A stretch of DNA of 64,000 bases from Arenibacter antarcticus (GTDB taxonomy: Bacteria; Bacteroidota; Bacteroidia; Flavobacteriales; Flavobacteriaceae): NCBI RefSeq assembly GCF_041320605.1, contig NZ_CP166679.1:124001-188000 (forward strand), in the 5' to 3' direction. Numbering within the stretch: position 1 is the stretch's first letter; every line of letters begins with the position of its first letter. The notes under the pieces were generated by a model. That model saw only the letters and a list, made by a program, of their open reading frames with translations, did not search any database and had not been told where the DNA came from. Positions 39,661 to 58,123 of the stretch are shown piece by piece. Made by a program: the position numbers and the translations under genes.

Positions 39661-40227
39661 TTAATTCCCCTTCATAATCCTTGTTTCTGACGTAAATTCA
39701 ACATCCCCAAGATAGGGTCCAGGAATGGGAGCGTAATCTAAGTTTTGTTTCACCCCTTGTTCTGTTGAGAAGTAAATAGTAACTACAAGCATTTTAAATC
39801 TGCGAAAAAAAGGTTCTAAATTGACCTTTTCTACCGCATTTGCTTCCTTCTCCAATCTATTGAGATAATCCTGTTTTTCCGATTCGTTAAGCTCAAGGAA
39901 ATTATTACCTGTAAAAGCCTTACAATTCTCATCAAACTCATCCAGTCCTTTTAAAAAACTATTCTTATACGCATCTTCAAATACTTCATTAAGCATTAGA
40001 TCCAAATATAGATTCACCTTTACATCGGAGGCACTAGGTGTTTCCGTTCTAGGAAGAATGGAATCTGCAATAGCAGTTACCAATTTGTCCTGTTCCTTAC
40101 TAAATACATAAAGATTAGCACTAGAAACCTCACTTTTACAACTTAGGAATCCTGTAAAAATAGAGGGGGCCAAATAAACAGATTTCAAAATCCATGATAT
40201 TTTTATAACCGCTTCCCTTCTTTCCAT
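39661..40227 (-). CDS. Gluconate 2-dehydrogenase subunit 3-like protein (small subunit of GMC dehydrogenase)
   Basis: 188 residues. N-terminal leader MERREAVIKISWILKS with twin arginines and a cysteine (FLSCKSE) suggests Tat export with possible lipidation. The rest follows the Gluconate_2-dh3 pattern: VFSKEQDKLVTAIADSILPRTETPSA, VNLYLDLMLNEVF, FLELNESEKQDYLNRLEKEA and a C-terminal IPGPYLGDVEF. Such small subunits pair with, and export, GMC-type flavoprotein dehydrogenases. The GMC gene lies 71 bp upstream in the same operon and has no signal of its own, as expected for hitchhiker export. Last gene of the leftward arm. Confidence 0.82.
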   Translation of the reverse strand: MERREAVIKISWILKSVYLAPSIFTGFLSCKSEVSSANLYVFSKEQDKLVTAIADSILPRTETPSASDVKVNLYLDLMLNEVFEDAYKNSFLKGLDEFDENCKAFTGNNFLELNESEKQDYLNRLEKEANAVEKVNLEPFFRRFKMLVVTIYFSTEQGVKQNLDYAPIPGPYLGDVEFTSETRIMKGN

Positions 40228-40298
40228 AATCTTATAATTGTTTCATTATTATAGCTGTCCTAATGCGCTATAAACCTAGATTTCCCATTAAATTGTCA

Positions 40299-41987
40299 TT
40301 AAAATATATTGTCTTTCATTTGTTTTACTGCATAATCGCAAGCCCTTGCGGTTAAAGCCATATAAGTAAGGGATGGACTCATATAACTAGAAGAGCTCAT
40401 ACAGGAACCATCGGTCACGAAAAGATTTGGAATGTCATGGCTCTGGTTATATGCATTAAGGAATGAAGTTTTAGGATCCCGTCCCATTCTAGCAGTTCCC
40501 ATTTCATGTACAGAATCTCCTTGAATACTAGGTCCTTCGCTGACTTTAACCTCTTTAAGTCCCGCCACTTCCAATACCTCCTTCGCCTGTTCTTTCATAT
40601 CCTCGCGCATTTTCATTTCATTATCACCAAATTCTGCTGATATTCTTATTAAAGGAAGTCCCCATTGATCGGTTAATTCTTGGTCTAATTCCACCTTATT
40701 CTCATAGTACGGCAAACATTCCCCATACGCTAAAAGAGACATCTTCCATGGTCCAGGAATGGCCAAAGAATTTTTAAAATCCACTCCAACCCCATCCTTA
40801 TCTGGATTTACACCCACTCTATGGGCCGATCCCCACATACCATATCCCCTTAGAAAATCCATTTTATTACCGTCTACGTTTCTAAATCTCGGAAGTGCTA
40901 CCGAGGTAGGCCTATTTCCTTTGTATATACTATCCAAATGGCCTTCAAGGGTTCCCGAAGAAGAAATGTTCTTATGATGATCCATTAAATAATGCCCCAA
41001 AACTCCACTTGAATTCCCCAAACCATTGGGAAAACTTTCCGATTTGGAATTTAGTAAGAGTCCCGTAGAAGCTATGGTAGATGCACATAGGAATACGACT
41101 CTGGCAAAATATTCGGTTACTTCTTTGGTACTCCCATCCATGACACGAACGCCAGAAACACGATTATTACTTTCGTTATAAATTAAGGAAATAACGATAG
41201 AATTAGATTTCAATGTCATTTTACCCGTATCCTGAGCTGCAGGAAGGGTAGAACTATTACTACTAAAATAGGCGCCGAAGGGACATCCAGTGTGACACAT
41301 ATTACGGGTCATACATTGCGACCTCCCCTTAAACTGACCAGGTTTTACTTGGGTAAGGTGCGCAGCCCTATTCGGTATTAGTTTACGGGTCTTATAATGC
41401 GATTCTAGCCTTTGCTTTATTACCTTTTCAGCCCGATTCATCTCAAAAGGAGGAAGGAATTGCCCATCTGGAAAATGATGAATATTTTCCTTTGACCCGC
41501 AGACCCCTATAAAACGTTCCACATAATCATACCAAGGTTCTAAATCCTTATATCTTATTGGCCAGTCCACTCCCATCCCGTCTTTTAGGTTGGCCTCAAA
41601 ATCAAGATCACTAAAACGATAGGCACCCCGTCCCCAAATTAAGGAGCGCCCACCTGTTTGATATCCTCTAAACCATCTATAAGGTTTATCTTCAGGATGT
41701 GTATAGGGATGCTCAAGATCATTTACAAAAAAGGGCTTACTCGCGGTATTAAAATTGTACTTCTTACTCTGGATATGGTAGGCCTTTTTGTCCTCAAGTG
41801 AAACCGCTCCAAAGTTTTTAAAGTCCCATGGGGCCTTATACGTATTTGTATAACCTTCAGGATGTTGAACTTCCTTCCCCCTTTCCAAAACAAGGGTTCC
41901 AAGCCCTTTTTCCGTTAACTCCTTAGCGGCCCATCCTCCGGTAATGCCAGACCCAATAACAATAGCATCGTATGTATTATTCTTCAT
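40299..41987 (-). CDS. GMC-family FAD sugar dehydrogenase (glucoside 3-dehydrogenase-like large subunit)
   Basis: 562 residues without signal peptide. FAD site AIVIGSGITGGWAAKEL at the N-terminus, GRSLIWGRGAYRFSDLDF, a cysteine-rich block (CMTRNMCHTGCPFGA) and the C-terminal catalytic segment VHEMGTARMG (H494) with SPSLTYMALTARACDYAV. The second active-site position, usually Asn or His (xNPxLT), is Ser537 here. GMC large subunits with a Gluconate_2-dh3 partner include the D-glucoside 3-dehydrogenases, which make 3-keto-glycosides in the periplasm and pass electrons to the respiratory chain. Its place in a susCD operon with two exported Gfo/Idh/MocA proteins supports a sugar substrate. C3 specificity is inferred. 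Confidence 0.85.
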   Translation of the reverse strand: MKNNTYDAIVIGSGITGGWAAKELTEKGLGTLVLERGKEVQHPEGYTNTYKAPWDFKNFGAVSLEDKKAYHIQSKKYNFNTASKPFFVNDLEHPYTHPEDKPYRWFRGYQTGGRSLIWGRGAYRFSDLDFEANLKDGMGVDWPIRYKDLEPWYDYVERFIGVCGSKENIHHFPDGQFLPPFEMNRAEKVIKQRLESHYKTRKLIPNRAAHLTQVKPGQFKGRSQCMTRNMCHTGCPFGAYFSSNSSTLPAAQDTGKMTLKSNSIVISLIYNESNNRVSGVRVMDGSTKEVTEYFARVVFLCASTIASTGLLLNSKSESFPNGLGNSSGVLGHYLMDHHKNISSSGTLEGHLDSIYKGNRPTSVALPRFRNVDGNKMDFLRGYGMWGSAHRVGVNPDKDGVGVDFKNSLAIPGPWKMSLLAYGECLPYYENKVELDQELTDQWGLPLIRISAEFGDNEMKMREDMKEQAKEVLEVAGLKEVKVSEGPSIQGDSVHEMGTARMGRDPKTSFLNAYNQSHDIPNLFVTDGSCMSSSSYMSPSLTYMALTARACDYAVKQMKDNIF

Positions 41988-42117
41988 AAAGTTATTAAGT
42001 GATTTTTAGATTCACTTACCCATTTCAGGCAACAAACACTAGCTAGCCCACCTTTGTAGTAGATTGGCAAAAAGCGGTCTTCCCAACGTCTTAAAACTCT
42101 CCCAATGACACTAAAGA

Positions 42118-43464
42118 CTAGGAAAAGAGTTTTTCCCATCCTGGCTCGTAATCTCTACTCCAGTATTTCATTGCTTCATTATTACTCAATATATGTCCAT
42201 TTTCGGGGTCAATGTTCAACGTACTGCCAGAACGCAAGGCGATGTTGCCCAATTGAACTAACAAGGTGCTTTGATGTCCTCCAATAATATCTGAATTTAA
42301 GGGAGTCCCTTTTCGGATGGCATCAAATAAATTTTGAATATGCAGCACATCCAAATCCTGCGATGGATTTGATAAATTTCCTGTGCCTATCTTCCGGCTT
42401 CCGCTGACTTCTTTTATCAGTTTGTTCTTTAAATCATAAATTTTATAGGAATTGCCCCCTTCAATTACCATAGAGCCATCTTCTCCATAAAAAATCACCC
42501 CTACGCCTGCTCCCTCAACAGAGCGTCCGTTACAACTACGCCCTTCCCATGACATTAAGGTATTATTGGAGAACTCCAGATTTATAACCTGTGTATCCGG
42601 TGTCTCCCAATCATCTTCGTAACGGTACCTACCACCATTAGAACTTACCTTGGTTGGATAGTCCACACCCAGTCCCCACCTTGCCAAATCTACGAAGTGA
42701 GTGCCATTGTTCAATGCTTCACCAGTACCCCAGTTCCAAAACCAATGCCAATTATAATGAACAATATTATCTTTAAAGGCCTCCCTAGGAGCGGGACCTT
42801 GCCATAAATCATAATTTAACCAGGAAGGTACTTCGGTAATCTTTCCGGTCCCTATTGAGGGTCTATTATTAGAATACCAGGTTTTAGCAAAATACGGACG
42901 GCCAATAATTCCATTTTTTAATTCCCCGATAGCTGTAATAACATTTGGCCATGAACGGCGCTGATTTCCCATCTGGACCACCCTATTATACCTTTTTGCA
43001 GCTGCCACTGCCAGTTCCCCTTCATGAGGATTATGGCTCGCCGGCTTTTCCAAATAAACATGTTTCCCTGCCTTGCACGCCATAATAGCAGCTGGTGCAT
43101 GCCAGTGATCTGGTGCCGCAACAATTAAAATATCTACATCCTTATCATCTAAGGCCTTCCTGAAATCCGTGGCATGTTTGGGTTTTTTGCCCTGGATTTT
43201 GGCTATGCTATTGATGAATTTTTCGGACGCTCTAGAATCCACATCACAGGAGTACAAAACTTCACAATTCGGCTGCAATGCAAAGTTGGAACCTACGGCA
43301 TGACCCCTACTGTTTACCCCCATACTGGCCACCTTAAGACGTTCGTTCGCCCCTATAATATTACTATAACTCTTGGCACTGAACCCTGGCAGTATACCTC
43401 CAATTGTGACTGCAGATGCACCTATCGCCGTTTTTTTAATAAATGACCTTCTTTTGTTTTCCAT
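42118..43464 (-). CDS. Tat-exported Gfo/Idh/MocA-family oxidoreductase
   Basis: 448 residues with a twin-arginine leader (ENKRRSFIKKTAIGASA), Rossmann region (KVASMGVNSRGHAVG), APDHWHAPAAIMACKAGKHVYLEKPASHNP (intact EKP) and the C-terminal domain with YDLWQGPAPREAF and NWHWFWNWGTGEALNNGTHFVDLARWGLG. It lies third-last in the leftward susCD operon, 130 bp before the GMC gene. Probably a periplasmic enzyme with bound NAD(P) that oxidises, reduces or epimerises a sugar unit. Confidence 0.87.
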   Translation of the reverse strand: MENKRRSFIKKTAIGASAVTIGGILPGFSAKSYSNIIGANERLKVASMGVNSRGHAVGSNFALQPNCEVLYSCDVDSRASEKFINSIAKIQGKKPKHATDFRKALDDKDVDILIVAAPDHWHAPAAIMACKAGKHVYLEKPASHNPHEGELAVAAAKRYNRVVQMGNQRRSWPNVITAIGELKNGIIGRPYFAKTWYSNNRPSIGTGKITEVPSWLNYDLWQGPAPREAFKDNIVHYNWHWFWNWGTGEALNNGTHFVDLARWGLGVDYPTKVSSNGGRYRYEDDWETPDTQVINLEFSNNTLMSWEGRSCNGRSVEGAGVGVIFYGEDGSMVIEGGNSYKIYDLKNKLIKEVSGSRKIGTGNLSNPSQDLDVLHIQNLFDAIRKGTPLNSDIIGGHQSTLLVQLGNIALRSGSTLNIDPENGHILSNNEAMKYWSRDYEPGWEKLFS

Positions 43465-43541
43465 GTGATTCTTTTTTAATATTTGATGTTCAAAATTATT
43501 TGATACTTCTAACCCTTGTCATTTTTAAAATACCTGTTTAT

Positions 43542-44711
43542 TTATTTTGGGTGATGAGCACCATACTTTAAAAAATATTCTAAAAACAGATATATATGTT
43601 CGTTGGATTCCTGGTTTGGAGAATGCTCTGGCCTATTGGTCATACCTACACGATGCTCATACCCCAATAGCTTATTAACTGCAATGGTATGATTTAGGGC
43701 TTTCCATCGATCTACCGGGTCTTCGGCTCCCCCAGAAACCAAAAATGGTCTTGGCGCCATAAGGGCATGTAGTTCCGTTAGGTCATAACCCTCCTTTATT
43801 AATTTTGGATACAATCCCCTTGCCGGATTTTCCTTTGTAATTAGTCCTCGTTTCCGCCATGGTTTGGGGTGATATCCCAAATACCATGGCTCCCAATAAT
43901 TCACAGATTCCCGTGACTCATCAAAGACAATACCAGGATCCGACCAGACTGATGCAGCAAACTTTTCATATAAACTAGCTCCGAACATTGCCCATTTACC
44001 TCCAAATGAATGCCCCACAATACCAATCCGAGCGGAATCTACCTTCTCCACTTTGGATAGTACCTCCCACGCATTCGCGGCCGCGTATCCAAGCATGGAT
44101 AATGGCTGGACCTGTGCATTGTTAATATTAGGGTAGTATAATGAGAAGGTTTTATTTTTAGTAGCTTCTGTAGTCCCTATCGATAAGGTAACAAACCCCC
44201 GCTTAGCCAATTGATAGGCAAAATCGCGATACGGTTTATCAGAATAACCTATGGCAGTTTCTGGCTCATAAAAAACAGTGATGACCGCCGGTTTTTGTCC
44301 TTCCCCATCAGGAACCAACAGGTATCCTTCTGTCTGCTCTCCGGGTTGCCAATAAAACCGCACCCTATGCTGCATAAAATTTTCGCGCCTTACCGTATCC
44401 AAGATTTCAAGCTTCTGATTTGTGATAACTTCTGGCCAATGCCCCATCATTTCTTGCCACCTTTGCCGAATCTCCTTTTTCCTTTTCTGCCAATCCTTAG
44501 GTGTCCTAACCTTTTTTCCATTATAAAATTTCAACGGCGATCGGTATTGGCCATAATCTTCAGAAAAAACCTCGGGCACAGAGAAATCTGAGGCTATTAT
44601 ATCCCATACCCTTGCAGCACCTGATTCCAATTTCGATTTTTCCTGGTTTTGCGCCATTCCACTATTGAATAATAGTATCGACAAAAGCAATAATTTAATT
44701 CTAATCCCCAT
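43542..44711 (-). CDS. Secreted alpha/beta hydrolase (acetyl-esterase-like)
   Basis: 389 residues, signal peptide ending NSGMAQ. Nucleophile elbow GHSFGG (S235), acid residue likely in GGAEDPVDRW (D331 or D334) and His in RPEHSP (H363). Long N-terminal region with WQEMMGHWPEV and HRVRFYWQPGEQTEGYLLVP is typical of large carbohydrate-esterase-like members of the family. In this operon it would remove an acyl group (acetyl or similar) from the incoming sugar before or after oxidation. CE15 glucuronoyl esterase is less likely, as the GxSRxGK motif is absent. Confidence 0.75.
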   Translation of the reverse strand: MGIRIKLLLLSILLFNSGMAQNQEKSKLESGAARVWDIIASDFSVPEVFSEDYGQYRSPLKFYNGKKVRTPKDWQKRKKEIRQRWQEMMGHWPEVITNQKLEILDTVRRENFMQHRVRFYWQPGEQTEGYLLVPDGEGQKPAVITVFYEPETAIGYSDKPYRDFAYQLAKRGFVTLSIGTTEATKNKTFSLYYPNINNAQVQPLSMLGYAAANAWEVLSKVEKVDSARIGIVGHSFGGKWAMFGASLYEKFAASVWSDPGIVFDESRESVNYWEPWYLGYHPKPWRKRGLITKENPARGLYPKLIKEGYDLTELHALMAPRPFLVSGGAEDPVDRWKALNHTIAVNKLLGYEHRVGMTNRPEHSPNQESNEHIYLFLEYFLKYGAHHPK

Positions 44712-44803
44712 GGTTCATTATAAATATAGGTAGACTGTATAATCCAAAACACGCTACACAAAATCGGACATCAACAAAGTCCTACTTTATTCGTTTTGGG
44801 TTG

Positions 44804-45844
44804 TTACCTTTTCTGTAGCTGCATTTCTGCTTTACGCATCATTTCCTCCAACACAACCGGCTTCCCTCTCCTTAGCTTGCTTTCGTCTGCCGCTGCCATA
44901 AAGGCGAAAATCTCCAAGGTTTCTGTACGACTGACTGGCACTACACCAGTCTTGAAAAAATTAATAATCTCTACGATCAACGGATCATATCCATCCAAGA
45001 TCTTAACCTTTTCCGCTACTCCCTTGCTTCCGTGGACCACTCCTCCAAATGAAGCTTTCCCACCTTCGGGAGTTGCAGTAAAAACCCCTATCCTACCATC
45101 GCTCCAAACTCCTGTAACCACAGTGGAGCTGGGGGTGTCAAATCTTGTCACCTCTTTACAACCCGTTCCCATTAAAGTGAAAAGTGCCTCAATGCCATGA
45201 ATTCCATAATATGCCATATCCAGATGCCCTAGCTGCTTTCCTGCAGGGCCATAGGTATGGGCTCCCAAAACCTCACCAATAGCTTCATTACCTTTAATTA
45301 TAGCTACGGATTCTGGAGCAAATCTAGTACTGGAAGCCGAAAACATAGGTGCATTATATTTTTTTGAAGCTTCAAAAAGTGCTACAGCCCCTTCCAAAGA
45401 GTTTGAAAGTGGTTTATCAACAAACATTCGCTTACCCGATTTTAACACTGGCAATGCTTCTTCAAGATGCCTTCTTCCATCGACAGATTCCAACAAAATA
45501 AAATCTACCTTAGTTAAAAGCTCTTCAATAGAAGTGACTATTTCGACCCCCATAGCCCTAATTTCCTCAGTAAACTTATCCAACCGATCTATGCTAGCTG
45601 GCATATCGGCACTTCCTTTAGTGGGATAAGCAGCAACAACGGAAAACCCTTTAAACTCAGCTCTTTCGGCATCATTGATGGACTTAGTAAAAGCAGTGAC
45701 ATGTGAAGTATCCAATCCAATGATCCCTATCCTTCCCTTTGAGGTACTTTTACTATTGGCGTACAGTGAAATGTTACCGGCGAGACCTAACCCTATTCCG
45801 GCCAATGTTGTTGATTTAATAAAATTACGGCGATTATTTCCCAT
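44804..45844 (-). CDS. Tat-exported Gfo/Idh/MocA-family oxidoreductase (short, DKP variant)
   Basis: 346 residues. Tat-type leader GNNRRNFIKSTTLAGIG, then GRIGIIGLDTSHVTAFTKSI in place of a typical GxGxxG loop, and MFVDKPLSNSLEGAVALF where EKP reads DKP. C-terminal half has GQVLGAHTYGP-like GEVLGAHTYGPAGK and YYGIHGIEALFTLMGTG. The atypical cofactor loop, ending in a His, suggests altered cofactor handling or a role other than plain dehydrogenation. First gene after susD, 78 bp downstream. Confidence 0.82.
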   Translation of the reverse strand: MGNNRRNFIKSTTLAGIGLGLAGNISLYANSKSTSKGRIGIIGLDTSHVTAFTKSINDAERAEFKGFSVVAAYPTKGSADMPASIDRLDKFTEEIRAMGVEIVTSIEELLTKVDFILLESVDGRRHLEEALPVLKSGKRMFVDKPLSNSLEGAVALFEASKKYNAPMFSASSTRFAPESVAIIKGNEAIGEVLGAHTYGPAGKQLGHLDMAYYGIHGIEALFTLMGTGCKEVTRFDTPSSTVVTGVWSDGRIGVFTATPEGGKASFGGVVHGSKGVAEKVKILDGYDPLIVEIINFFKTGVVPVSRTETLEIFAFMAAADESKLRRGKPVVLEEMMRKAEMQLQKR

Positions 45845-45922
45845 TAGTTTTTAATTATTGATTTACATATTTACAGATTGTATCTAATACTTCCAAGGTT
45901 TATTATAATATTTAGATGATAA

Positions 45923-47629
45923 TTAATTATAACCAGGGTTTTGACTAAATTCCGACTCGATATTTAAATCGATTTCACTTTGAGGTATTGGAAACAAATT
46001 ATTATAATCTTGAATATTAGCCCCTGGCAACATAGGATTATCATGATATTTTCTGGTTCTTTCTATCAACTTGTTTGTACGCATAAGGGTCAAAATTCTC
46101 CATTCCTCAAAATAGAGTTCACGTATCCGTTCATCTAAAATATAATCGACATCTACATCTGCTGGTAAAACAGGAATTGCGTTTGCACGACCCCTGACTT
46201 CATTAATATCTTTGGCCGCTGCAATTTGATCGTTATTATTACACAAATGCGCTTCCGCCCTTAAAAGATAGGTTTCCGCTAAGCGCATGGCGTAGAAATC
46301 AGTAGAAACAGCACCACCGCCACCTCGGTTAGGATCGGCAATTGTGGCCTGCACTATTGGTTCCCAGCCTTTCATGAAAAATGGATATATGTAATTGGTA
46401 GTGTCTTTCAATAGATTTCTGGAGCCTGGTGCGTAATCAGAAAGATCAATTTTCTTACCATGGTATTCGGACTCCGGATTTTCGTAATAGAAATTCCGCT
46501 TTATATTATGTTCAGCATTTCGTATATCGTTATCCCAATTCCCTTTCCAAACGTCGTAAAACACCAAGTTAGTCCCTCGTGTCCGAGCCACCTGTCTGCC
46601 TAATGTATCGGAGAAAGTTTTGATAAATGCTGGTTTGCCATCCGGAGCGGCACCCAAACTAAAAATACGAGGACCATAGATTCCAGACCAATAATGGTCG
46701 GAGCCTCCCAGTTCTAGTTTTGGCTCAAATTGGATTGTCCAAATCGCCTCTGTATTTAAAGGCGGGTTTTGGTTCCCATATCGGAAAAGATCCCAATAAA
46801 CATCTCCAGACCCCAACACATCATTTTGTGCTCCAAATCGTTCTGTCATTAATCCATATCCTAATTTCTCAATTACCGTTGTTGCTGCATTAATGGCTAG
46901 ATCACATTTGTTCTGAGAAAGGTATACTTCTGTCAACAGGTGATACGCTGCACCCTGGGTTAAACGTCCGGGTAAAGCTTCATGCCCACGGGCAGGTAAA
47001 TTTTTAGCTGCAAAGGTCAGATCTACTTCCATCTGTTTGTACACCTCCTGTTTGGGTGTCCTTATGAAATCAACTTTCGCTTCTTCTATGACCTCTGTGA
47101 TAAGAGGCACATCGCCCCATAGAATAACTGCAAGACGATATGCCCAGGCCCTAAAAAACATAGCCTCAGCTAATAATGAATTCTTTTGAGCATCGTTTTT
47201 CCACAAGTCTCCATCAACTTCATTTATTGCCCTAATGAGAACATTGGCAGACTGAATGTTTCTGTAGGCACTGTTCCACCAATCTCTAATTTCTGGTGAC
47301 TGTGGTGTAACACTAGTTTCATAATTTGTTAAAAACCGCTGCCCCCCCGGAGTTTCCCCGTCATAGCCCACATCGGTACCATTACCATGTAATGTATGTG
47401 CCTGATTAGCTAATCTAAACCAATTATCCCGAATGTCCGAATACATGCCTATAAGCCCAGATTCTATACCTTCGGGCGTTTTGTAGGCATTTTCAGGTGT
47501 TAAAAAATCCAATGGCTCTTCCTTTAAAAACTCTTCTTCACTACAAGAGAGAAAAAAGGCAAACAAAATGAATGCTACGGCCAATGCTCTACTGCTAACC
47601 AAAACCTTTAAGATATCTATATTTCTCAT
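45923..47629 (-). CDS. SusD/RagB-family surface glycan-binding lipoprotein
   Basis: 568 residues. Lipoprotein signal ending AFFLSCSEEEFLKEEPLDFLTPEN with the usual SusD N-terminal block, TPR-type helices in the middle (LLAEAMFFRAWAYRLAVILWGDVPLITEV) and SusD_RagB C-terminal blocks (YAMRLAETYLLRAEAHL, LDERIRELYFEEWRILTLMRTNKL, FPIPQSEIDLN, FSQNPGYN). Encoded 37 bp after susC. Confidence 0.95.
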   Translation of the reverse strand: MRNIDILKVLVSSRALAVAFILFAFFLSCSEEEFLKEEPLDFLTPENAYKTPEGIESGLIGMYSDIRDNWFRLANQAHTLHGNGTDVGYDGETPGGQRFLTNYETSVTPQSPEIRDWWNSAYRNIQSANVLIRAINEVDGDLWKNDAQKNSLLAEAMFFRAWAYRLAVILWGDVPLITEVIEEAKVDFIRTPKQEVYKQMEVDLTFAAKNLPARGHEALPGRLTQGAAYHLLTEVYLSQNKCDLAINAATTVIEKLGYGLMTERFGAQNDVLGSGDVYWDLFRYGNQNPPLNTEAIWTIQFEPKLELGGSDHYWSGIYGPRIFSLGAAPDGKPAFIKTFSDTLGRQVARTRGTNLVFYDVWKGNWDNDIRNAEHNIKRNFYYENPESEYHGKKIDLSDYAPGSRNLLKDTTNYIYPFFMKGWEPIVQATIADPNRGGGGAVSTDFYAMRLAETYLLRAEAHLCNNNDQIAAAKDINEVRGRANAIPVLPADVDVDYILDERIRELYFEEWRILTLMRTNKLIERTRKYHDNPMLPGANIQDYNNLFPIPQSEIDLNIESEFSQNPGYN

Positions 47630-50905: not shown

Positions 50906-50933
50906 TTAATAATGTGTAGGTACACATTATTAA
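50906..50933. promoter_or_regulatory. Operator candidate O1 (LacI-type), susC-proximal
   Basis: Perfect 13-base arms TTAATAATGTGTA (50906-50918) and TACACATTATTAA (50921-50933) around GG. The core TGTGTAGGTACACA (50913-50926) shares TGTGTnnnnACACA with two other sites in this spacer. It lies 105 bp upstream of the susC ATG, at or above its promoter. Confidence 0.7.
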
Positions 50934-51110
50934 AAAAAATAAAAAAATAGCAACGTTTGCTTTTCTTATCATTTACTGGATTCCCTTACACTTATACCTT
51001 CTAACACCCTATATATAGTATACTTTCAAAACGTTTATATTTAAGGGCAATCAAATATCGAATCTCGAAATTAAGTAAATATTTTTAAAAAACAAGAAAA
51101 TTATGAAAAA

Positions 51111-51124
51111 TGTGTGGCTACACA
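51111..51124. promoter_or_regulatory. Operator candidate O2 (LacI-type), central
   Basis: TGTGTGGCTACACA matches the TGTGTnnnnACACA pattern with imperfect centre. It lies between O1 and O3 and could allow DNA looping. Confidence 0.55.
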
Positions 51125-51215
51125 AATATATAGTACAGAAACATATAACACCAAATATTAGCATGATAATATTGAAATATTCGATATTAAATTCATTTAT
51201 ATAATATAAATTTTA

Positions 51216-51235
51216 TACATTTGTGTGCGCACACA
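51216..51235. promoter_or_regulatory. LacI promoter box overlapped by operator candidate O3
   Basis: TACATTTG at 51216-51223 matches the Bacteroidota TAnnTTTG box for rightward transcription, although no clear TTTG lies 19 bp upstream. The perfect palindrome TGTGTGCGCACACA (51222-51235) overlaps its end, so bound regulator would block polymerase: a layout for autorepression. Confidence 0.6.
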
Positions 51236-51270
51236 TAAGCAGCTATTGCGCTGCTCTATTTTTTACAACA

Positions 51271-52380
51271 ATGGGTAAAGTGAAAAAAACAACTATTCAG
51301 GACCTCGCCGATTATGCAAATGTTTCTATAGGAACCGTTGACAGGGTGATACACAAAAGAGGGAAAGTCTCCGCGGTAAAACAAAAAAAAGTCGAGGAGG
51401 CGATCAAAAATCTCAATTTCAACCCCAATCTTTTGGCCAGAACCCTAGCCCTGGGACAACAGTTCAATATATGCAGTCTTCTTCCCAGAGCGAGCAACCC
51501 AAATAGCTATTGGAGCCTTCCCAAGCGAGGCATAGAAGAAGCAATTGTTGATTACAGAGATTTTGGCATCGCCTGTCATTCTATTGAATACAATCTTTTT
51601 GACGAATCGAGTTTTGTAGAAAGTGCAGATGCTTTACTCGCTATGAATCCCAATGGCGTAATACTAGCCCCTCTTTTTGAAAAAGAGAGCCTATTGTTTA
51701 TTAAAAAGCTCGACGCCAAAAAAATCCCTTACATCTTTATCGATGCAATTATCCCAAACCAAAACAATCTTTCTTATATAGGACCCGACCTTAACGGAAG
51801 TGGCCATGTGGCAGGCAAGCTTATGAGCTCCATATTGAACAGTTCCGATGACATTCTTATATTGAATTTTGTAAAAGGTCTGGAAAACAGCCATATTAAT
51901 ATCATTGAAAAAGGATTTCGCGAATTTTTCCATTCTTTGAAAGAAACAGGAAAAGGAAAGATAAATACCATTACGGTACCCTCTATCGAAGAAGTGGATA
52001 TTACACGGGAACTCACAAAATACTACATTAAGAACCCGGGAACTAAAGGGGTTTTCGTCACCAATTCCAGAGCCCATATCATAGCAAAATATCACACCAT
52101 GCACGAACTTTCAATTAAAGTAGTAGGGTTTGACATGCTGCAGGAAAATATCCGCGAAATGAAGAATGGGAATATCGATTTTCTTATATCCCAAAGGCCA
52201 ATTTCGCAAGGAACGATGGCCGTTAAGGCACTTTTCGAGTATTTTGTACACAAGAAATCTCTTGTAAAAATACAGCACCTACCACTAGATATTATTATAA
52301 AAGAAAATATAGATTATTATATAAAGTTTCAGGAACCTGTTGTTGTCGATCAACCCAATACTATGAAAAATCCAGATTAA
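51271..52380 (+). CDS. LacI-family transcriptional regulator
   Basis: The ATG at 51271 (MGKVKKTTIQDLADYANVS) is preferred to an in-frame GTG at 51223, because that GTG lies inside the operator palindrome and promoter box. 369 residues: LacI helix-turn-helix (TIQDLADYANVSIGTVDRVI, hinge region KVEEAIKNLNFNPNLLARTLA), then a periplasmic-binding-protein-like effector domain (NICSLLPRASNP, YIFIDAIIPNQNNLSYIGPDL, VVGFDMLQENIREMKNGNIDFLISQRP). The Asp in TVDRVI is typical of the Bacteroidota substrate-binding-type LacI members. It probably controls both the leftward susCD operon and its own rightward operon through the three palindromes upstream. Confidence 0.9.
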   Translation: MGKVKKTTIQDLADYANVSIGTVDRVIHKRGKVSAVKQKKVEEAIKNLNFNPNLLARTLALGQQFNICSLLPRASNPNSYWSLPKRGIEEAIVDYRDFGIACHSIEYNLFDESSFVESADALLAMNPNGVILAPLFEKESLLFIKKLDAKKIPYIFIDAIIPNQNNLSYIGPDLNGSGHVAGKLMSSILNSSDDILILNFVKGLENSHINIIEKGFREFFHSLKETGKGKINTITVPSIEEVDITRELTKYYIKNPGTKGVFVTNSRAHIIAKYHTMHELSIKVVGFDMLQENIREMKNGNIDFLISQRPISQGTMAVKALFEYFVHKKSLVKIQHLPLDIIIKENIDYYIKFQEPVVVDQPNTMKNPD

Positions 52381-52532
52381 AAGTTAAATCTAACATATAA
52401 AGAGCATTACAAAAAACACAGAGTCTAGCATCAAAAATTAGTGCGTAATACCATAGAATCAGCAGTGCTCTAACATTAGGAAAAGAATCTTAACAAAGCA
52501 ATGCGAGAGGTAAAAGGATGAAATAATAAAAA

Positions 52533-53336
52533 ATGAAAATGAAAAAGTTACTCATAGGAGTTATACTACCCACTTTGCTTATTATAAGCTGCAAGTCAAA
52601 GCAAGAAGAAAAAAACTCCCAACAGAAAGAAAGCGCAATCAATACATTAACTACCGCAGAAACAAACGAAGGATGGATACTACTTTTCGACGGTAAAACC
52701 TTTAATGGATGGCGAAGTCTAGGTCGGGATATGGTCCAGAAGGAACATTGGAAGATCGAAGACGGTGCGATACGGAAACTGAACTCTGGCGAGGTTCCAT
52801 CCCTTGCCGATGGACAACCAATGGAAGGTGGAGATCTAATGACCGAAGATTCTTTTGACAACTTTGAATTATATTTTGAATGGAAAATATCCAATCAAGG
52901 AAATACCGGCCTAAAGTATAATGTATCAGAGGAAATGTCACAAAAATACGATTCCAAATATTCTGCTTTGGGATTTGAATATCAATTACTCGACGACAAG
53001 GATAGCACCTATGCCGGGAAGTTAAAACCCTCACAATACACCGGTGGTCTGTACGATTTGGTCATTCCAAAAAATACCAGAATCAAACCTGTGGGAGAAT
53101 ATAATTCAAGCAAAATTTCCATTAATGGCAATCATGTTGAACATTGGTTAAATGGGGACCTTGTATTAACCTATGAATTGGGTTCCCCGCATTTGGACTC
53201 TTTGTTCCAAGCCAGTAAATATAGGGACATTCCTCAATTTTTAGAAAAACGAAAAGGACATATAGTCCTGCAAAACCATAAGGACGATGCTTGGTTCAGA
53301 AATATCAAGATTAGAAAAACCCCAGCAAAGGAATAA
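52533..53336 (+). CDS. DUF1080 (3-keto-disaccharide hydrolase family) lipoprotein
   Basis: 267 residues. Lipoprotein signal PTLLIISCKSKQEE. The domain has the concanavalin-like DUF1080 pattern: EGWILLFDGKTFNGWRSLG at the start, EHWKIEDGAIRKL, GGDLMTEDSFDNFELYFEWKIS, GNTGLKYNVSEE, YEYQLLDD-type FEYQLLDDKDS, SGGLYDL-type TGGLYDLVIP and a C-terminal GHIVLQNHKDDAWFRNIKIR. Members of PF06439 are linked with cleavage of 3-keto-glycosides formed by sugar dehydrogenases. Periplasmic or surface location fits action on products of the GMC and Gfo/Idh/MocA enzymes of the divergent arm. An in-frame ATG two codons later is also possible as start. Confidence 0.87.
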   Translation: MKMKKLLIGVILPTLLIISCKSKQEEKNSQQKESAINTLTTAETNEGWILLFDGKTFNGWRSLGRDMVQKEHWKIEDGAIRKLNSGEVPSLADGQPMEGGDLMTEDSFDNFELYFEWKISNQGNTGLKYNVSEEMSQKYDSKYSALGFEYQLLDDKDSTYAGKLKPSQYTGGLYDLVIPKNTRIKPVGEYNSSKISINGNHVEHWLNGDLVLTYELGSPHLDSLFQASKYRDIPQFLEKRKGHIVLQNHKDDAWFRNIKIRKTPAKE

Positions 53337-53496
53337 TATACACCACTTACCAAATAAGAACCACTTAAGGGGTTACGGTACTGTTTGGAGGCCAGGCTGC
53401 AACTTACAACATTTAGTATTCTTAGTGCTGTGTAAGCTCTTAAGCTTGTCGAATAAAGTAGAAATATTGTTAAAAAAGTGACTAAAAAATTTGTAT

Positions 53497-54255
53497 ATGA
53501 AGACTGATCTAACTATTGAAAACATCTCAATATCCATTTATGAAAACCCTGACGAAATGGGAGGTGCCGCAGCGAATTTTGTAGAGAGTAAGCTGAAAGA
53601 GGCGATTGCCTTAAAAGGGTATGCCAATCTTATTTTGGCGACCGGAGCTTCCCAGTTTACATTTTTAAAGGATTTGAAGAACAAGGAGATCGACTGGCAA
53701 AAAATAACGGTCTTTCACTTGGATGAATACAGGGGGATTTCTAACACGCACCCTGCCAGTTTCCGAAAATATCTAAAGGAAAGAATTCTGGATGAAGTGG
53801 AACCAAAAAAAGTGTATTTCTTAAACGGGGATGCGGTAGATATTGAACAAGAGATACAACAATATGCCATTGAGCTGAAAAAACATCCTATAGACATTGC
53901 CTGTATCGGCATTGGTGAGAACGGCCACATTGCCTTTAACGATCCACCAGTGGCTGATTTTAACGATCCTGAATGGGTAAAACTGGTAACACTAGACGAA
54001 GCATGTAAAAACCAGCAAATTGGAGAAGGATGGTTCCCTACCATGGACGATGTTCCAAAACAGGCTTTAACGGTGACCATTCCGGCAATATTAAGCTGTA
54101 AAACAATTAGCTGTGTAGTTCCCGACCAAAGAAAGGCCCAAGCAGTGTACAATACCCTTTATAATCCAATAAGTACTGAATGCCCTGCTACAATTTTAAG
54201 AAAACATCCCGATACAAGAATGTTCCTTGACAAGGGTTCTGCAGCGAAGCTATAA
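53497..54255 (+). CDS. nagB: Glucosamine-6-phosphate deaminase-like protein
   Basis: The ATG at 53497 is used instead of an in-frame TTG at 53491. 252 residues of the NagB/SugIso fold: LILATGASQFTFL, VFHLDEYRGIS (D76), IDIACIGIGENGHIAFNDPP (139-152) and a C-terminal TIPAILSCKTISCVVPDQRKAQAVYNTL. Compared with E. coli NagB, the positions of catalytic Asp141 and Glu148 read Asn and Asp (GENGHIAFND). Asn at the first position occurs in Bacillus-type enzymes, while Asp at the second is more unusual. It should act on GlcN-6-P, or on another hexosamine phosphate such as GalN-6-P, giving a ketose phosphate and ammonia. Upstream of nagA with two genes in between, in a rightward operon. Confidence 0.8.
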   Translation: MKTDLTIENISISIYENPDEMGGAAANFVESKLKEAIALKGYANLILATGASQFTFLKDLKNKEIDWQKITVFHLDEYRGISNTHPASFRKYLKERILDEVEPKKVYFLNGDAVDIEQEIQQYAIELKKHPIDIACIGIGENGHIAFNDPPVADFNDPEWVKLVTLDEACKNQQIGEGWFPTMDDVPKQALTVTIPAILSCKTISCVVPDQRKAQAVYNTLYNPISTECPATILRKHPDTRMFLDKGSAAKL

Positions 54256-54383
54256 TAGATTTATTCGTTTTGTGCACCGTTTATTGGGTATGAAGACCGT
54301 TACGGCCGAAATAAGCTATATGGAAATAACACAAAACAGTCATTCAACGCATTAATACTGAACAAATAATTACTAATAAAATT

Positions 54384-55415
54384 ATGGATAGAAAAAAACT
54401 CGGATTTGGAATCATAGGAACAGGTGCTATTGCATCACACCACGCCAAGAGTATTCAAGAACTTGAAGACTGTAAATTAATAGCGGTCTGCAGTTCTACT
54501 CCGGAAAGGGCAAAAGTAGCCTCCGAAAAATTTGGGGTACCTGCCTATTCAAATTTAGAAGAGTTTTTGCTCAGGGACGACTTAGATATTATTTCTGTTT
54601 GTACCGAGAGCGGCAGGCATATGGAACCCATACTAGCGGCGGCTATGGCAGGGAAGCATGTGATTGTAGAAAAACCTTTAGAGGTGACAGTAGAACGGGC
54701 CAGCCGTATTATAGCGGTATGCCGTGCGCAAAACGTGAAACTGGGGGTCATTTTTCAAAATCGATTCAATCCAGCCTATTTACGGCTGAAACAAGCAGTC
54801 CATCAGGGTGCTTTGGGGAAATTAATTTTGGGAAATGCGTACATCAAATGGTATCGGGATGAAGCCTATTATAAAACTAGCGACTGGAAAGGGACTCTCA
54901 CGGGGGACGGCGGGGCAGCCTTAATAAACCAAGGCATCCATACCATTGATCTGTTACTAGATATCATGGGAGATGTGGAGAGCGTTTTTGGCAAAGTAAA
55001 GACCATGGTGCACGATATAGAGGGGGAAGATATTGGAATTGCCATGTTAGATTTTAAAAATGGCGCTATGGGGACCATTGAAGGAGGCACATCATTATAT
55101 CCTGGCTATAAGGACCGTTTGGAAATATTTGGTGAAAACGGAAGTATTATCTATGAGGGGGGTGAAATAGTTAGCTGGAATTTAAAAGGTTGTGAAGCAA
55201 CAACAAAAAAGACTGATGAAATATCTTCTAGTGGCGCATCAGACCCCATGTCTGTAGATTATCGTTTGCACTTGGCTCAACTAAAAGAAATGGTTCTGGC
55301 AGTTCGCAATGATCGAGACCCCGAAGTAAATGGAGAAAGCGCCCTTAAATCCTTGGAACTGATTTCGGCCATTTATAAATCTTCCAAGGAAAAACAAATA
55401 ATCGAATTAAAATAA
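54384..55415 (+). CDS. Cytoplasmic Gfo/Idh/MocA-family oxidoreductase
   Basis: 343 residues without leader, so cytoplasmic, unlike the other Gfo/Idh/MocA members in the window. Rossmann site FGIIGTGAIASHHAKSI, CTESGRHMEPILAAMAGKH-type block (CTESGRHMEPILAAAMAGK), VIVEKPLEVTVERASRI (intact EKP), FQNRFNPAYLRLK and GDGGAALINQGIHTIDLLLDIMGDV typical of sugar dehydrogenases or 3-keto-sugar reductases. In this operon it may re-reduce an imported keto-sugar or oxidise its free form. Confidence 0.87.
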   Translation: MDRKKLGFGIIGTGAIASHHAKSIQELEDCKLIAVCSSTPERAKVASEKFGVPAYSNLEEFLLRDDLDIISVCTESGRHMEPILAAAMAGKHVIVEKPLEVTVERASRIIAVCRAQNVKLGVIFQNRFNPAYLRLKQAVHQGALGKLILGNAYIKWYRDEAYYKTSDWKGTLTGDGGAALINQGIHTIDLLLDIMGDVESVFGKVKTMVHDIEGEDIGIAMLDFKNGAMGTIEGGTSLYPGYKDRLEIFGENGSIIYEGGEIVSWNLKGCEATTKKTDEISSSGASDPMSVDYRLHLAQLKEMVLAVRNDRDPEVNGESALKSLELISAIYKSSKEKQIIELK

Positions 55416-55461
55416 CAACCAAATTTAAAACTGTCCTTACAGAACCAATAATCAAACAACT

Positions 55462-56928
55462 ATGGAATTAAACTATATCGATTTTTTAGTCATTGGCATC
55501 TTTTTTTTATCAATGATTCTCATAGGTGTATATGCCTATTTTAAAAACAAGAGTTCAGAGGATTTTTTTGTTGCTGGCGGCCACTTACCTTGGTGGTTAT
55601 CTGGTATTTCCCATCATGTTTCAGGATATAGTGGCGCTGTTTTTGTGGCTTATGCAGCCCTTGCCTATACGTATGGATTTTCGCTTTATATCTGGTGGGC
55701 ATTTACAATTGGAACGGCAATAATAGCGACCGCTAAAATTTTCCCCGTCTATTGGGTACGTTTGCGGAAAAAATTTAAAATACAATCCCCATTGGAATAT
55801 TTAGCTATACGCTATAATGTTTTTACCCAACAGCTGATAGCCTGGGTAGGTGTAACGCTAAAACTTTTTGATGTTGGTGCCAAGTGGGCAGCCATTGCCA
55901 TACTGCTTAACGTAACTACAGGAATTTCCTTTACTCATGGAATATTGATATCGGGCGGTGTTTCATTGATATATATAACTATTGGTGGACTTTGGGCCGT
56001 AATTTTGACCGATCTAGCTCAATTCTTGGTACAACTGGTAGCTGGGATTACCATGTTTGTTGTGGTATTGAACCGATTTGAAGGCTGGGACTCAATTTTT
56101 GGTATATGGGATCAACTCCCTTCTGAAAACAGTCAATTATTCAACGATCCCTATACTGTAGGCTTCGCCTTGGTCTTTCTCTTTATTAACTTCCTGAGTT
56201 ATAACGGGGGAAGCTGGCCACTTGCCACAAGGTACATTTCATCTAACACCGAAGGTGAAGCTTCAAAAGCGGCCTATCTCTCGGGGATTCTCTATTTAAT
56301 ATGGCCCTTGATCCTATTTTTCCCTATGTGGGCAGCCCCCCTTATTCTACCTGAGATGGAGGACCCTTCTGAATCCTATGGCCTTTTAATACAAAACCTT
56401 TTGCCCAATGGACTGATCGGTCTGGTCATTGCTTCTTTGTTTGCTAATACCATGTCCATGACCTCGTCTGATGTAAATACTATTTCTGCCGTTATCACAC
56501 GGGATATACTTCCAGTAGTGTCTGGTAAATTTAAAAACAAAGGGACTTCATTGTTTACCGCTAGGATAACTACCTTTGTTTTTACCACACTTACCATTAT
56601 AATCGCGTTTCAATATGAATATTTTGGAGGGGTATTAGGACTTATTGTTACTTGGTTTGGTGCCCTTTTGGGGCCTATTGCGGTACCGCTCTTGTTTGGA
56701 TTGATACCTATGTTCAGAAACTGTGGCCCAATAGCTGCTATTTCCTCAGTTTTAGCAGGATTAACCGCCTTCAGCATAACCAAAATAATACCTATGGATA
56801 GTATGGCCTTGGAAGTAGGCATGCCGGTAATTGTCAGTATGTTAGTCTATTGTATACTTGGATGGATCTTAAAGGAACCTATTTCCAACGAAGTAAAAGA
56901 TTTAGAGACAGCAATAGCGGATATATAA
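55462..56928 (+). CDS. Sodium:solute symporter (SSS family), probable amino-sugar importer
   Basis: 488 residues with about 13 membrane segments. SSS features: FFVAGGHLPWWLSGISHHVSGYSGAVFVAYAAL-type segment near residue 35-65 (FFVAGGHLPWWLSGISHHVS), LEYLAIRYN, LITIGGLWAV-type IYITIGGLWAVILTDLAQFLVQL and LFANTMSMTSSDVNTISAVITRDI. SSS members import sugars or sialic acids with Na+. Its position 7 bp before nagA and after nagB indicates uptake of GlcNAc or a related amino sugar across the inner membrane. Confidence 0.88.
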   Translation: MELNYIDFLVIGIFFLSMILIGVYAYFKNKSSEDFFVAGGHLPWWLSGISHHVSGYSGAVFVAYAALAYTYGFSLYIWWAFTIGTAIIATAKIFPVYWVRLRKKFKIQSPLEYLAIRYNVFTQQLIAWVGVTLKLFDVGAKWAAIAILLNVTTGISFTHGILISGGVSLIYITIGGLWAVILTDLAQFLVQLVAGITMFVVVLNRFEGWDSIFGIWDQLPSENSQLFNDPYTVGFALVFLFINFLSYNGGSWPLATRYISSNTEGEASKAAYLSGILYLIWPLILFFPMWAAPLILPEMEDPSESYGLLIQNLLPNGLIGLVIASLFANTMSMTSSDVNTISAVITRDILPVVSGKFKNKGTSLFTARITTFVFTTLTIIIAFQYEYFGGVLGLIVTWFGALLGPIAVPLLFGLIPMFRNCGPIAAISSVLAGLTAFSITKIIPMDSMALEVGMPVIVSMLVYCILGWILKEPISNEVKDLETAIADI

Positions 56929-56935
56929 ATAAACT

Positions 56936-58123
56936 ATGCAAAAACTCGTAATACACAACGGAAAAATTATTACTCCCTTTAGAATAATTCCCAAGGGAAC
57001 CATTGAAATTTTTGGAAACAAAATCACTGCAATATACGAAGGCGAAGTCAAAAAGGTAGACAATGCCATCGTAATTGATGCCAAAGATCGGTATATCTCA
57101 CCTGGCTTTATTGATATCCATGTTCATGGTGGTGGTGGACACGATTTTATGGATGGAGAGGTAACGGGTTTTCTGAAAATTGCCGAATTGCATGCCAAGT
57201 ATGGTACAACGGCTATGTTACCAACCACCTTAACAGGGAGTAAGGACGATTTACTAAACACCTTGGAGATTTACGAACAGGCCAATAACATCAATAACAA
57301 CGGTGCTGAATTTTTAGGACTACACTTAGAAGGACCGTATTTCGCCATGAGCCAAAGAGGCGCACAGGACCCCAGATATATCCGGGATCCAAATCCAGTT
57401 GAATACCAGGAAATTCTGCAAAGATCCAAACATATAGTACGTTGGAGTGCCGCACCGGAACTAAAGGGCGCTATGGAATTTGGGCGTTATCTTCGCGAAA
57501 ATAAGGTTCTGGCATCCATTGCCCATACGGATGCTATTTACGAAGAGGTGGTAGATGCCGTAGAAAACGGCTTTTCATTGTCGACTCACCTCTATTCCGG
57601 CATGTCTGGAGTAAGCCGAAAAAATGCCTTCCGATTTGCAGGCGTAATAGAAAGTTCCTTATTGATGGACGAATTGGACGTGGAAATAATTGCTGATGGA
57701 ATCCACCTTCCCTCCCCCCTACTAAAATTGATTTACAAAGTAAAGGGTCCTCATAAAATAGCACTGATAACAGATGCCATGCGCGCTGCAGGATGTTCAC
57801 CAGGAGAAAGTGTTCTTGGACATAAAGACCATGGATTAAAGGTTATTGTAGAAGATGGCGTAGCAAAACTACCAGATCGCACTGCCTTTGCTGGAAGTGT
57901 TGCTACCGCTGACCGCCTAGTTAGAAATATGATAAGAATGGCGGATGTATCGCTGCTAGATGCCATAATGATGATGACTACTACCCCGGCACGTATTATG
58001 GGCATCGATCATAAAAAGGGAAGCTTATCTGTTGGAAAAGACGCCGACATTGTTATTTTTGATCAAAATATAGAAATTCAGGAAACCATCGTTGGAGGAA
58101 AACGAGTATACAGCCGGAATTAA
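56936..58123 (+). CDS. nagA: N-acetylglucosamine-6-phosphate deacetylase
   Basis: 395 residues, 7 bp after the transporter. All metal and active-site positions of NagA are present: HVH (62-64), E132 in HLEGPYF, H197 (SIAHTDA), H218 (STHLYSGM), H257 (DGIHLPS) and D280 (LITDAM). These match the spacing of E. coli NagA closely. It removes the acetyl group from GlcNAc-6-P, feeding the NagB-like enzyme. No GlcNAc kinase is present in the window, so phosphorylation must be encoded elsewhere. Confidence 0.92.
   Translation: MQKLVIHNGKIITPFRIIPKGTIEIFGNKITAIYEGEVKKVDNAIVIDAKDRYISPGFIDIHVHGGGGHDFMDGEVTGFLKIAELHAKYGTTAMLPTTLTGSKDDLLNTLEIYEQANNINNNGAEFLGLHLEGPYFAMSQRGAQDPRYIRDPNPVEYQEILQRSKHIVRWSAAPELKGAMEFGRYLRENKVLASIAHTDAIYEEVVDAVENGFSLSTHLYSGMSGVSRKNAFRFAGVIESSLLMDELDVEIIADGIHLPSPLLKLIYKVKGPHKIALITDAMRAAGCSPGESVLGHKDHGLKVIVEDGVAKLPDRTAFAGSVATADRLVRNMIRMADVSLLDAIMMMTTTPARIMGIDHKKGSLSVGKDADIVIFDQNIEIQETIVGGKRVYSRN

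Follow-up and report, generated by a model that had tools for sequence, protein, structure and literature searches.

Two exported Gfo/Idh/MocA proteins in a locus of Arenibacter antarcticus as a possible redox route to N-acetylhexosamines

The stretch of DNA analysed here, called the window, comprises 64,000 nucleotides of the genome of Arenibacter antarcticus (G000:C1:124001-188000; the genome is a single contig of 4.69 Mb), and the subject of this report is a group of 13 genes at 39661-58123 that with high probability forms a catabolic locus for an N-acetylhexosamine (HexNAc), N-acetylglucosamine (GlcNAc) being the most likely sugar. Judged from gene content, it appears about as likely as not that periplasmic redox chemistry cleaves the bond holding the HexNAc. 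A more specific reading is put forward tentatively, as a possible rather than a probable account: two exported proteins, GFOtat1 and GFOtat2, may constitute a recurrent route of the Bacteroidota in which they stand in for glycoside hydrolases (GH) of families GH20 and GH109, freeing HexNAc by C3-oxidation and elimination and delivering it to NagA and a NagB-like protein (NagBL). This route would have branched from a BT2158-like family partnered with DUF1080 proteins, GFOtat2 replacing DUF1080 as the nearby partner. We infer that oxidation takes place at C3, what the substrate is and which reaction each enzyme performs. The features of the locus are the following.

39661-40227 (-): Gluconate_2-dh3 small subunit (G2DH3) that pairs with the GMC protein (PF13618, 8.1e-29, 101 bits)
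40299-41987 (-): GMC flavoprotein dehydrogenase (PF05199, 2.3e-19; 70.8 and 38.7 bits)
42118-43464 (-): GFOtat1, exported Gfo/Idh/MocA oxidoreductase, BT2158-related (PF19051/PF01408)
43542-44711 (-): alpha/beta hydrolase, esterase-like, with an apparent signal peptide, accessory (PF12715, 2.4e-07)
44804-45844 (-): GFOtat2, second exported Gfo-like protein (PF01408, 2.8e-06, a weak match of 28.5 bits)
45923-47629 (-): SusD lipoprotein (PF07980, 5.3e-32, 112 bits)
47667-50801 (-): SusC, TonB-dependent outer-membrane transporter (TIGR04056, 792 bits)
50913-50926: LacI-type operator palindrome 1, TGTGTAGGTACACA, 112 bp upstream of susC
51111-51124: LacI-type operator palindrome 2, TGTGTGGCTACACA, intergenic, between the arms
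51222-51235: LacI-type operator palindrome 3, TGTGTGCGCACACA, 111 bp from palindrome 2
51271-52380 (+): LacI-family regulator, proposed repressor of both arms (PF00356/PF13407; start revised from 51223)
52533-53336 (+): lipoprotein with a DUF1080 / 3-keto-disaccharide hydrolase domain (PF06439, 1.2e-43, 149.8 bits; 8tda, 4.9e-36)
53491-54255 (+): NagBL, NagB-like sugar-phosphate deaminase/isomerase of a short subfamily with the motif GIGENGHIAFND (TIGR00502, 137 bits; 2bkv, 6.5e-32)
54384-55415 (+): GFOcyt, cytoplasmic Gfo/Idh/MocA protein, proposed keto-sugar reductase (PF01408, 2.3e-29)
55462-56928 (+): SSS sodium:sugar symporter, proposed HexNAc importer (PF00474, 2.5e-28)
56936-58123 (+): NagA, N-acetylglucosamine-6-phosphate deacetylase (TIGR00221, 283.5 bits; 2vhl, 1.1e-51)

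All 13 genes are present within 39661-58123, as matches to Pfam and NCBIfam models, in two divergent arms, the left on the minus and the right on the plus strand. The label Tat (twin-arginine translocation) leader refers to RRxF motifs read by eye rather than by a predictor. The adjacent SusC and SusD genes (TIGR04056, PF07980) make the locus a polysaccharide utilization locus (PUL) of the SusCD type. Besides PF06439 (DUF1080), no GH or polysaccharide lyase (PL) domain of Pfam reached E <= 0.001 in any of the 13 proteins, and the alpha/beta hydrolase gives a below-cut-off match to a glucuronyl esterase family, which is not a GH. The gene set, its order and the absence of a classical GH or lyase had been claimed in a preliminary description of this DNA, and all are borne out by the coordinates and family matches; the Pfam search over all 13 proteins gave no sign of a GH or PL missed inside the locus.

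An amino-sugar product, proposed in the same description, is well supported by three proteins of the right arm. NagA exceeds the equivalog cut-off of TIGR00221 (283.5 versus 225.65 bits), is the only NagA match of the genome at E <= 1e-10, and has GlcNAc-6-phosphate deacetylases, 2vhl among them, as its nearest solved relatives; its HVHG, HLEGP and TDAM correspond in the alignment to HIHG, HLEGP and TDSM of 2vhl, and are presumably metal/catalytic motifs. NagBL scores below the nagB equivalog cut-off of TIGR00502 (137.3 versus 236.9 bits) and represents a separate short subfamily beside NagB, in which it nevertheless finds its nearest solved relatives; HLDEYRG and the GIGENGHIAFND motif are read from its translation, and a 653-amino-acid reading frame of NagB type is encoded elsewhere in the genome. 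In seven same-family loci (L046, L047 and L049-L053), relatives of the SSS symporter (54-57%) are encoded together with NagBL, NagA, GH20 and SusC, the GH20 of L046 being confirmed by PF00728. N-acetylgalactosamine (GalNAc) is a possible alternative to GlcNAc because NagBL adjoins GH109 in L043, and L174 has NagA, an MFS gene, NagBL and GH109 side by side. A DUF5009/NagX-like membrane protein occurs in three related modules (L123, by Pfam; L100 with 45% and L181 with 41% to that of L123). NagX has a genetic link to glucosamine use and is proposed to acetylate periplasmic glucosamine (PMC9007349). As for NagB-like genes elsewhere, one in a metagenome-assembled genome of the Clostridia (L035:1960-3767; 44%) is followed by a Gfo gene whose product is 26% identical to GFOtat2, a possible counterpart outside the Bacteroidota, and others stand beside Nramp-type transporters in the same-family loci L039, L041, L043, L044 and L045 (a pairing based on Pfam for L039 and L043, on identity for L041 and on reading for L044 and L045).

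The two arms had been described as a single locus, a view sustained by the three palindromes that they share and by the divergent gene order, which recurs in two Arenibacter species, in Sinomicrobium and in a genome of the same family (L037); chance neighbourhood of unrelated arms is rejected on the same operator-like sites and synteny. Between the arms the TGTGTNNNNACACA pattern occurs three times, where shuffled versions of the window lead one to expect 0.04 copies. Genome-wide there are six copies, the other three lying within reading frames and having A/T-only cores; read backwards as a control, the pattern occurs once in the whole genome. The intergenic alignment of the close loci shows a conserved palindrome, and the operator pattern is kept in all four close relatives, with 2, 2, 3 and 3 copies. 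The pair of operators nearest to the LacI gene is spaced by 111 bp in the window, by 101 bp in three of the relatives and by 91 bp in the fourth, with differences of about whole helical turns (10-bp steps), which suggests a repression loop. Because the operator-like sites lie between them, both arms probably answer to one repressor, whose regulon under the exact TGTGTNNNNACACA pattern is probably this locus alone. Translation of the regulator probably starts at about 51271, since the GTG at 51223 falls within an operator palindrome.

Comparison with close relatives separates constant from optional parts. The close set was defined by NagBL identity of at least 78% and includes five loci: the window, A. 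latericius (L031), Arenibacter certesii (L032), Sinomicrobium weinanense (L033) and L037; NagBL orthologues at 66-70% (L038, L039, L041) were left out, L039 carrying GFOtat1 at 64% and GFOtat2 at 24% identity. The nearest relatives at the locus belong to Arenibacter and Sinomicrobium, both members of the Flavobacteriaceae (NagBL 81-85%). GFOtat1, GFOtat2, LacI, NagBL, SSS and NagA are present in all five loci and GFOcyt in four (it is absent from L037). The GMC/Gluconate_2-dh3 pair is found in three (the window, A. certesii and L037, not A. latericius or Sinomicrobium), while DUF1080 and SusCD are each found in two, the window and Sinomicrobium; the window alone combines the GMC pair with DUF1080, and A. 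latericius has neither. The alpha/beta hydrolase has no orthologue in the loci of the four close relatives. Beyond the close set, six modules with an orthologous NagA (L098, L099, L100, L102, L103 and L105) contain neither GMC nor DUF1080 in the 9-20 kb fetched, and SusC/SusD are also seen in three related modules (L100, L103 and L187). The GMC protein and DUF1080 had been cast in the preliminary description as the central catalysts, a role in which they lose weight because they are inconstant, the GMC pair missing from two and DUF1080 from three of the five close loci, while the two exported Gfo proteins are in every one. Natural variants exist without each optional part (DUF1080, flavoprotein), and the two Gfo proteins are the core. 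Two other hydrolase-like genes lie beside the locus in L037 (their kind read from the sequence, one with a 22% match).

GFOtat1 is the protein on which a redox chemistry can be argued. It matches the BT_2158_fam model (NF058561) at 1.7e-41 with 142 bits, far below the cut-off of 750; its nearest solved relative is BT2158 (8tdf, 2.5e-27), with the GH109 enzyme 2ixa at 8.3e-07, and the sugar-sugar (aldose-aldose) oxidoreductase 5a02 is also among its solved relatives. In pairwise comparison it scores 96 bits against a BT2158 fragment and at most 45 against three GH109 proteins; these scores and the absence of PF21252 reject membership of GFOtat1 in GH109, whose mechanism is kept as a rival below. 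BT2158 is a periplasmic glycoside 3-dehydrogenase on which growth with trehalose, leucrose and palatinose depends (PMC11300592). A survey of 395 genomes of the class, considering up to the four best candidates per genome at E <= 1e-90, gave at least 49 places of the GFOtat1 family in 32 genomes. Context was recorded in 47 rows, made up of 42 of the 49 listed places (all except G534:C23, G534:C22, G245:C1:594041, G182, G449, G391:C55 and G469:C39) and five loci from NagBL-centred searches; the counts leave out the Gfo proteins of L043-L045, which are at 22-26% to GFOtat1. NagA and NagBL are near in 15 rows, DUF1080 only in 21 and neither in 11, and two of the 15 NagA-linked rows (the window and Sinomicrobium) also have DUF1080. 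These DUF1080 labels came from a single query and were then re-tested with a profile, which left the NagA-linked labels unchanged and moved three of the 11 'neither' rows to DUF1080 (L117 and two in L135; divergent matches); a PF06439 match is also found near L117. The redox or 3-keto part of the earlier proposal is therefore plausible, since GFOtat1 is related to BT2158 and 21 of 47 family rows lie near DUF1080, though not in the form that gave the central place to GMC and DUF1080.

In a maximum-likelihood tree of GFOtat1, 13 NagA-linked and two 'neither' rows form one clade (99/97), L121 and L123 form a separate NagA-linked pair, and the context labels are clustered beyond all shuffles, a result to which near-copies contribute. 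A single origin of all NagA-linked GFOtat1 is marginally rejected (approximately unbiased test, p-AU 0.03, for a group that was defined once the tree was known), which makes two origins possible. The residues K140 (in an EKP motif), H120, H122 and H256, which we take to be active-site residues for this fold, are common to the NagA-linked and DUF1080 groups, and 36 columns are fixed in the NagA-linked rows and variable or different in the DUF1080 rows, a contrast partly due to the greater diversity of the latter. Both groups would then share their chemistry and perhaps differ in their pocket. A GFOtat1 paralogue in the same genome adjoins a tandem DUF1080 protein (L113), and another Gfo/Idh/MocA protein of the window with PF19051 and a Tat-like leader, at 22590-23966 (+), scores 178 bits to GFOtat1.

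GFOtat2 follows the NagA-linked branch: a profile search finds its family in 13 of 15 NagA-linked rows and in none of the 21 DUF1080-only rows (Fisher p 4.5e-08, a value that takes related rows as independent). Across 23 relatives, D143-K144-P145, H207, D209 and H216 are conserved and G-x-I-G-L-x3-H is invariant near the start, at the place of the dinucleotide loop, from whose usual form in the Gfo fold it differs. The family also occurs without a strict NagA link, the L185 copy adjoining a DUF1080 protein 53% identical to that of the window and the copies in L183 and L190 adjoining quinoprotein/cytochrome dehydrogenases (Pfam). Phylum searches, considering up to the four best NagA and the five best GFOtat2 candidates per genome, added at least four loci with GFOtat1, GFOtat2 and NagA (L180, L181, L186 and L187), of which L180 and L186 are outside the window's class and L186 has no NagBL in the fetched stretch. 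In total there are at least 19 GFOtat1/NagA loci, and the make-up is found under seven family codes (f1, f16, f36, f57, f63, f68 and f90), one of which belongs to another class than the window. As a separate observation, GFOtat2-family genes lie near pyrroloquinoline quinone (PQQ) or glucose/sorbosone dehydrogenase-cytochrome c genes in L039, L183, L189 and L190 (by Pfam for L183 and L190, by reading for L039 and by 35% identity to it for L189), perhaps a shared electron route.

The optional components were considered separately. The DUF1080 protein passes the PF06439 cut-off (149.8 versus 26.8 bits), and the genome holds 23 PF06439 matches. Within the fetched stretches, DUF1080 is encoded in three of the 19 GFOtat1/NagA loci, namely the window, L033 and L181 (about 2 kb beyond NagA), and 9-24 matches per genome lie elsewhere in all 12 searched genomes with NagA-linked GFOtat1. 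Being often missing in cis and present elsewhere, DUF1080 either acts in trans or elimination is not its job. The GMC protein, also found in three of 19 loci, is accompanied here by the Gluconate_2-dh3 small subunit, so that both members of the pair are present; its best solved relative is the large subunit of fructose dehydrogenase (phmmer, 1.2e-34), glucose dehydrogenases are also matched, and plasmid homologues reach 52%, two of the 20 listed records being annotated with a subunit-3 gene.

The place taken by the releasing enzyme was compared across 26 loci centred on NagA or NagBL, 16 of them obtained via NagBL (E <= 1e-50) and 10 more via NagA (at least 54% identity), GH20 being tested within the fetched stretches, L038 excluded. 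GFOtat1 only is present in eight, GH20 only in 10, both in one (G534) and neither in seven, two of which (L043 and L174) have GH109. Twenty chosen unassigned open reading frames (ORFs) from other GFO-type modules contain no sugar-releasing GH; one is a cell-wall transglycosylase/transpeptidase and one a nucleoside-hydrolase-like Sde182 protein. The GH109 genes of L043:8019-10214 and L174:9337-14011, beside NagB-like genes (in L174 also NagA and MFS), represent a third occupant of the same place.

Several points weigh against redox release of HexNAc, with the Gfo pair standing in for a hydrolase. Loci with both GFOtat1 and GH20 show a modest deficit (one-sided p 0.024), and since the loci are not independent of one another, the slot argument is suggestive only. 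Strict exclusivity is broken by the GFO-type locus of G534, where a GH20 (a 529-amino-acid ORF, called from the PF00728 match at that place) lies shortly beyond the MFS gene and outside the stretch first fetched. Five GH20 matches in four reading frames are found elsewhere in the window's genome and could provide conventional HexNAc release in trans; GH20 is found somewhere in 19 of 19 genomes tested, and the PF00728 search covered 15 of the 19 genomes that have a GFO-type locus (all but G080, G469, G699 and G672). In 16 of the 19 GFOtat1/NagA loci the fetched stretch lacks DUF1080, and the NagBL orthologues of L038 (a 5.7-kb contig) and L041, at 66-70%, have no GFOtat1 nearby. GFOtat2 gives no match to BT_2159_fam at 1e-3, and its structure model, built from four close sequences, is poor (predicted local distance difference test, pLDDT, 51). 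Finally, there is no kinase among the locus genes, the candidates elsewhere in the genome being a ROK protein and a BadF-type protein below its family cut-off.

Under the preferred reading, GFOtat1, with tightly bound nicotinamide adenine dinucleotide (NAD) as in BT2158, would oxidise C3 of a HexNAc glycoside, and the aglycone would be lost by elimination, possibly with the help of DUF1080, encoded in cis here and in Sinomicrobium and elsewhere in the genome in relatives. GFOtat2 would reduce the 3-keto amino sugar and close the redox cycle, while the GMC/Gluconate_2-dh3 pair, where present, could offer an extra flavin adenine dinucleotide (FAD) route into respiration. The SSS symporter would import HexNAc, or a 3-keto form that GFOcyt reduces; a kinase from outside the locus would phosphorylate the imported sugar, NagA would deacetylate it, and NagBL or canonical NagB would deaminate the product to fructose-6-phosphate.

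The same genes can be read otherwise. It is conceivable, if rather unlikely, that no glycosidic bond is cleaved and that the exported Gfo proteins (with the GMC pair) make an importable HexNAc out of an amino sugar that is free or modified, such as an epimer, a keto form or a 1-substituted derivative, GH20 enzymes encoded elsewhere in the genome doing the cutting. The absence of SusCD and DUF1080 from three of the five close loci fits such a small diffusible substrate, and 5a02 shows that sugar-sugar oxidoreductases exist among the solved relatives of this fold; against this, the GFOtat1 family is tied to DUF1080 and BT2158, both linked to glycoside use in two papers (PMC9007349, PMC11300592), and SusCD and DUF1080 are encoded in the window and in Sinomicrobium, SusC/SusD also in L100, L103 and L187. 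It is also unlikely that GFOtat1, by itself or together with GFOtat2, acts in the manner of GH109 as a self-sufficient NAD-dependent glycosidase, a single active site carrying out oxidation, elimination, hydration and reduction. DUF1080 and GMC would then be unneeded, in agreement with their absence from 16 of 19 GFOtat1/NagA loci each, and a true GH109 adjoins NagBL in L043 and L174. GH109 BT4243 frees GalNAc in Bacteroides thetaiotaomicron (PMC11992087), and BT_2158 appears, as a dehydrogenase, in the row that a published table gives to GH109 (PMC12834350). However, PF21252 is missing from all three Gfo proteins encoded here, GFOtat1 is closer to BT2158 than to GH109 by the pairwise scores given above, and 21 of its relatives lie near DUF1080.

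The scheme of the preliminary description, in which the GMC/Gluconate_2-dh3 pair oxidises C3, DUF1080 cleaves and the Gfo proteins merely recycle the keto sugar, is very improbable. Its ingredients are both encoded in the locus, and LacABC and DUF1080 are genetically linked to lactose use in Caulobacter (PMC9007349); yet the window is alone among the five close loci in having both, both Gfo proteins being in all five, and among the 19 GFOtat1/NagA loci GMC is found in three and DUF1080 beside the module in two (plus L181).

Several known systems border on this locus. With the 3-keto pathway of B. thetaiotaomicron it shares an exported BT2158-related Gfo protein, a second exported Gfo protein, DUF1080 and the lack of need for a classical GH; BT2158 is required for glucose disaccharides (PMC11300592), whereas here the route is one for HexNAc (NagA, NagB-like), the second Gfo protein is of another family, DUF1080 is optional, a GMC pair is possible and LacI stands between the arms. 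A BT2159-type partner (cut-off 650) was not found: GFOcyt reaches 36.8 bits and GFOtat1 28 bits, and GFOtat2 stays unmatched at 1e-3. The pathway genes are presumably BT2156-BT2160, in which we take BT2157 to be the DUF1080 protein and BT2156 to be TIM-barrel sugar isomerase/epimerase-like, and no Pfam domain of the latter kind is present in the 13 locus proteins. On the preferred reading the locus would operate in the manner of the 3-keto pathway. It is not counted as a member because both the BT2159-type partner and the BT2156-type isomerase are absent. LacA of Caulobacter is presumably a GMC protein with a small subunit. LacABC with DUF1080 shares with the locus a periplasmic dehydrogenase plus DUF1080 (PMC9007349), and differs in that here there is no cytochrome subunit in the locus, the output is an amino sugar and the flavoprotein is inconstant. 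The seven GH20 loci mentioned above share NagB-like, SSS, NagA (about 30%) and SusC genes, and differ by the presence of GH20 and the absence of GFOtat1 and GFOtat2 from the fetched stretches. The GH109 HexNAc loci (BT4240-BT4250; 1254-2618 of the window) share an exported Gfo-fold enzyme feeding HexNAc to import and phosphosugar catabolism, whereas the present locus has no PF21252 in its three Gfo proteins, no dedicated kinase and no M60 protease; this border is drawn differently by others, given the table that places BT_2158 with GH109 (PMC12834350).

Redox-based glycan breakdown is recent knowledge, the published cases considered here being those of glucose disaccharides, glucosinolates and lactose (PMC11300592, PMC9007349). 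No relevant literature was found for 3-keto-, 3-oxo- or 3-dehydro-GlcNAc, and no prior description of this locus type, or of 3-keto chemistry coupled to GlcNAc catabolism, was recognised in a search that covered mostly titles and the beginnings of abstracts and few subscription journals. If such breakdown held for N-acetylhexosamines by way of a regulated locus of its own, amino sugars of chitin, peptidoglycan or glycoproteins could be freed by enzymes that lie outside GH searches, and substrate predictions for Bacteroidota based on carbohydrate-active enzymes would miss this release.

The rest of the window contains further glycan-related genes. A second PUL of HexNAc type at 1254-14385 (+) encodes the GH109 protein (1254-2618; PF21252, 261 bits), a Peptidase_M60 protein, two ORFs of SusC/SusD size (assigned by size) and DUF4959/DUF5126/DUF5000 and DUF4998/F5_F8 proteins, and resembles the mucin-type BT4240-BT4250 locus of B. 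thetaiotaomicron (PMC11992087). A GH63/MGH1-like hydrolase lies at 16365-19004 (+), and a GH32 gene (32419-34044) adjoins a sugar-porter MFS gene in what is probably a separate sucrose/fructan unit (32419-35435, -). A small protein with a phage tail collar domain (PF07484; 39067-39453, -) is encoded between an OmpA-domain gene and the locus, whose border is marked by a tRNA-Pro gene; beyond this tRNA gene lies the gene of a 1570-amino-acid protein (59143-63855, -) that carries SprB repeats and a CHU_C domain of type IX secretion.

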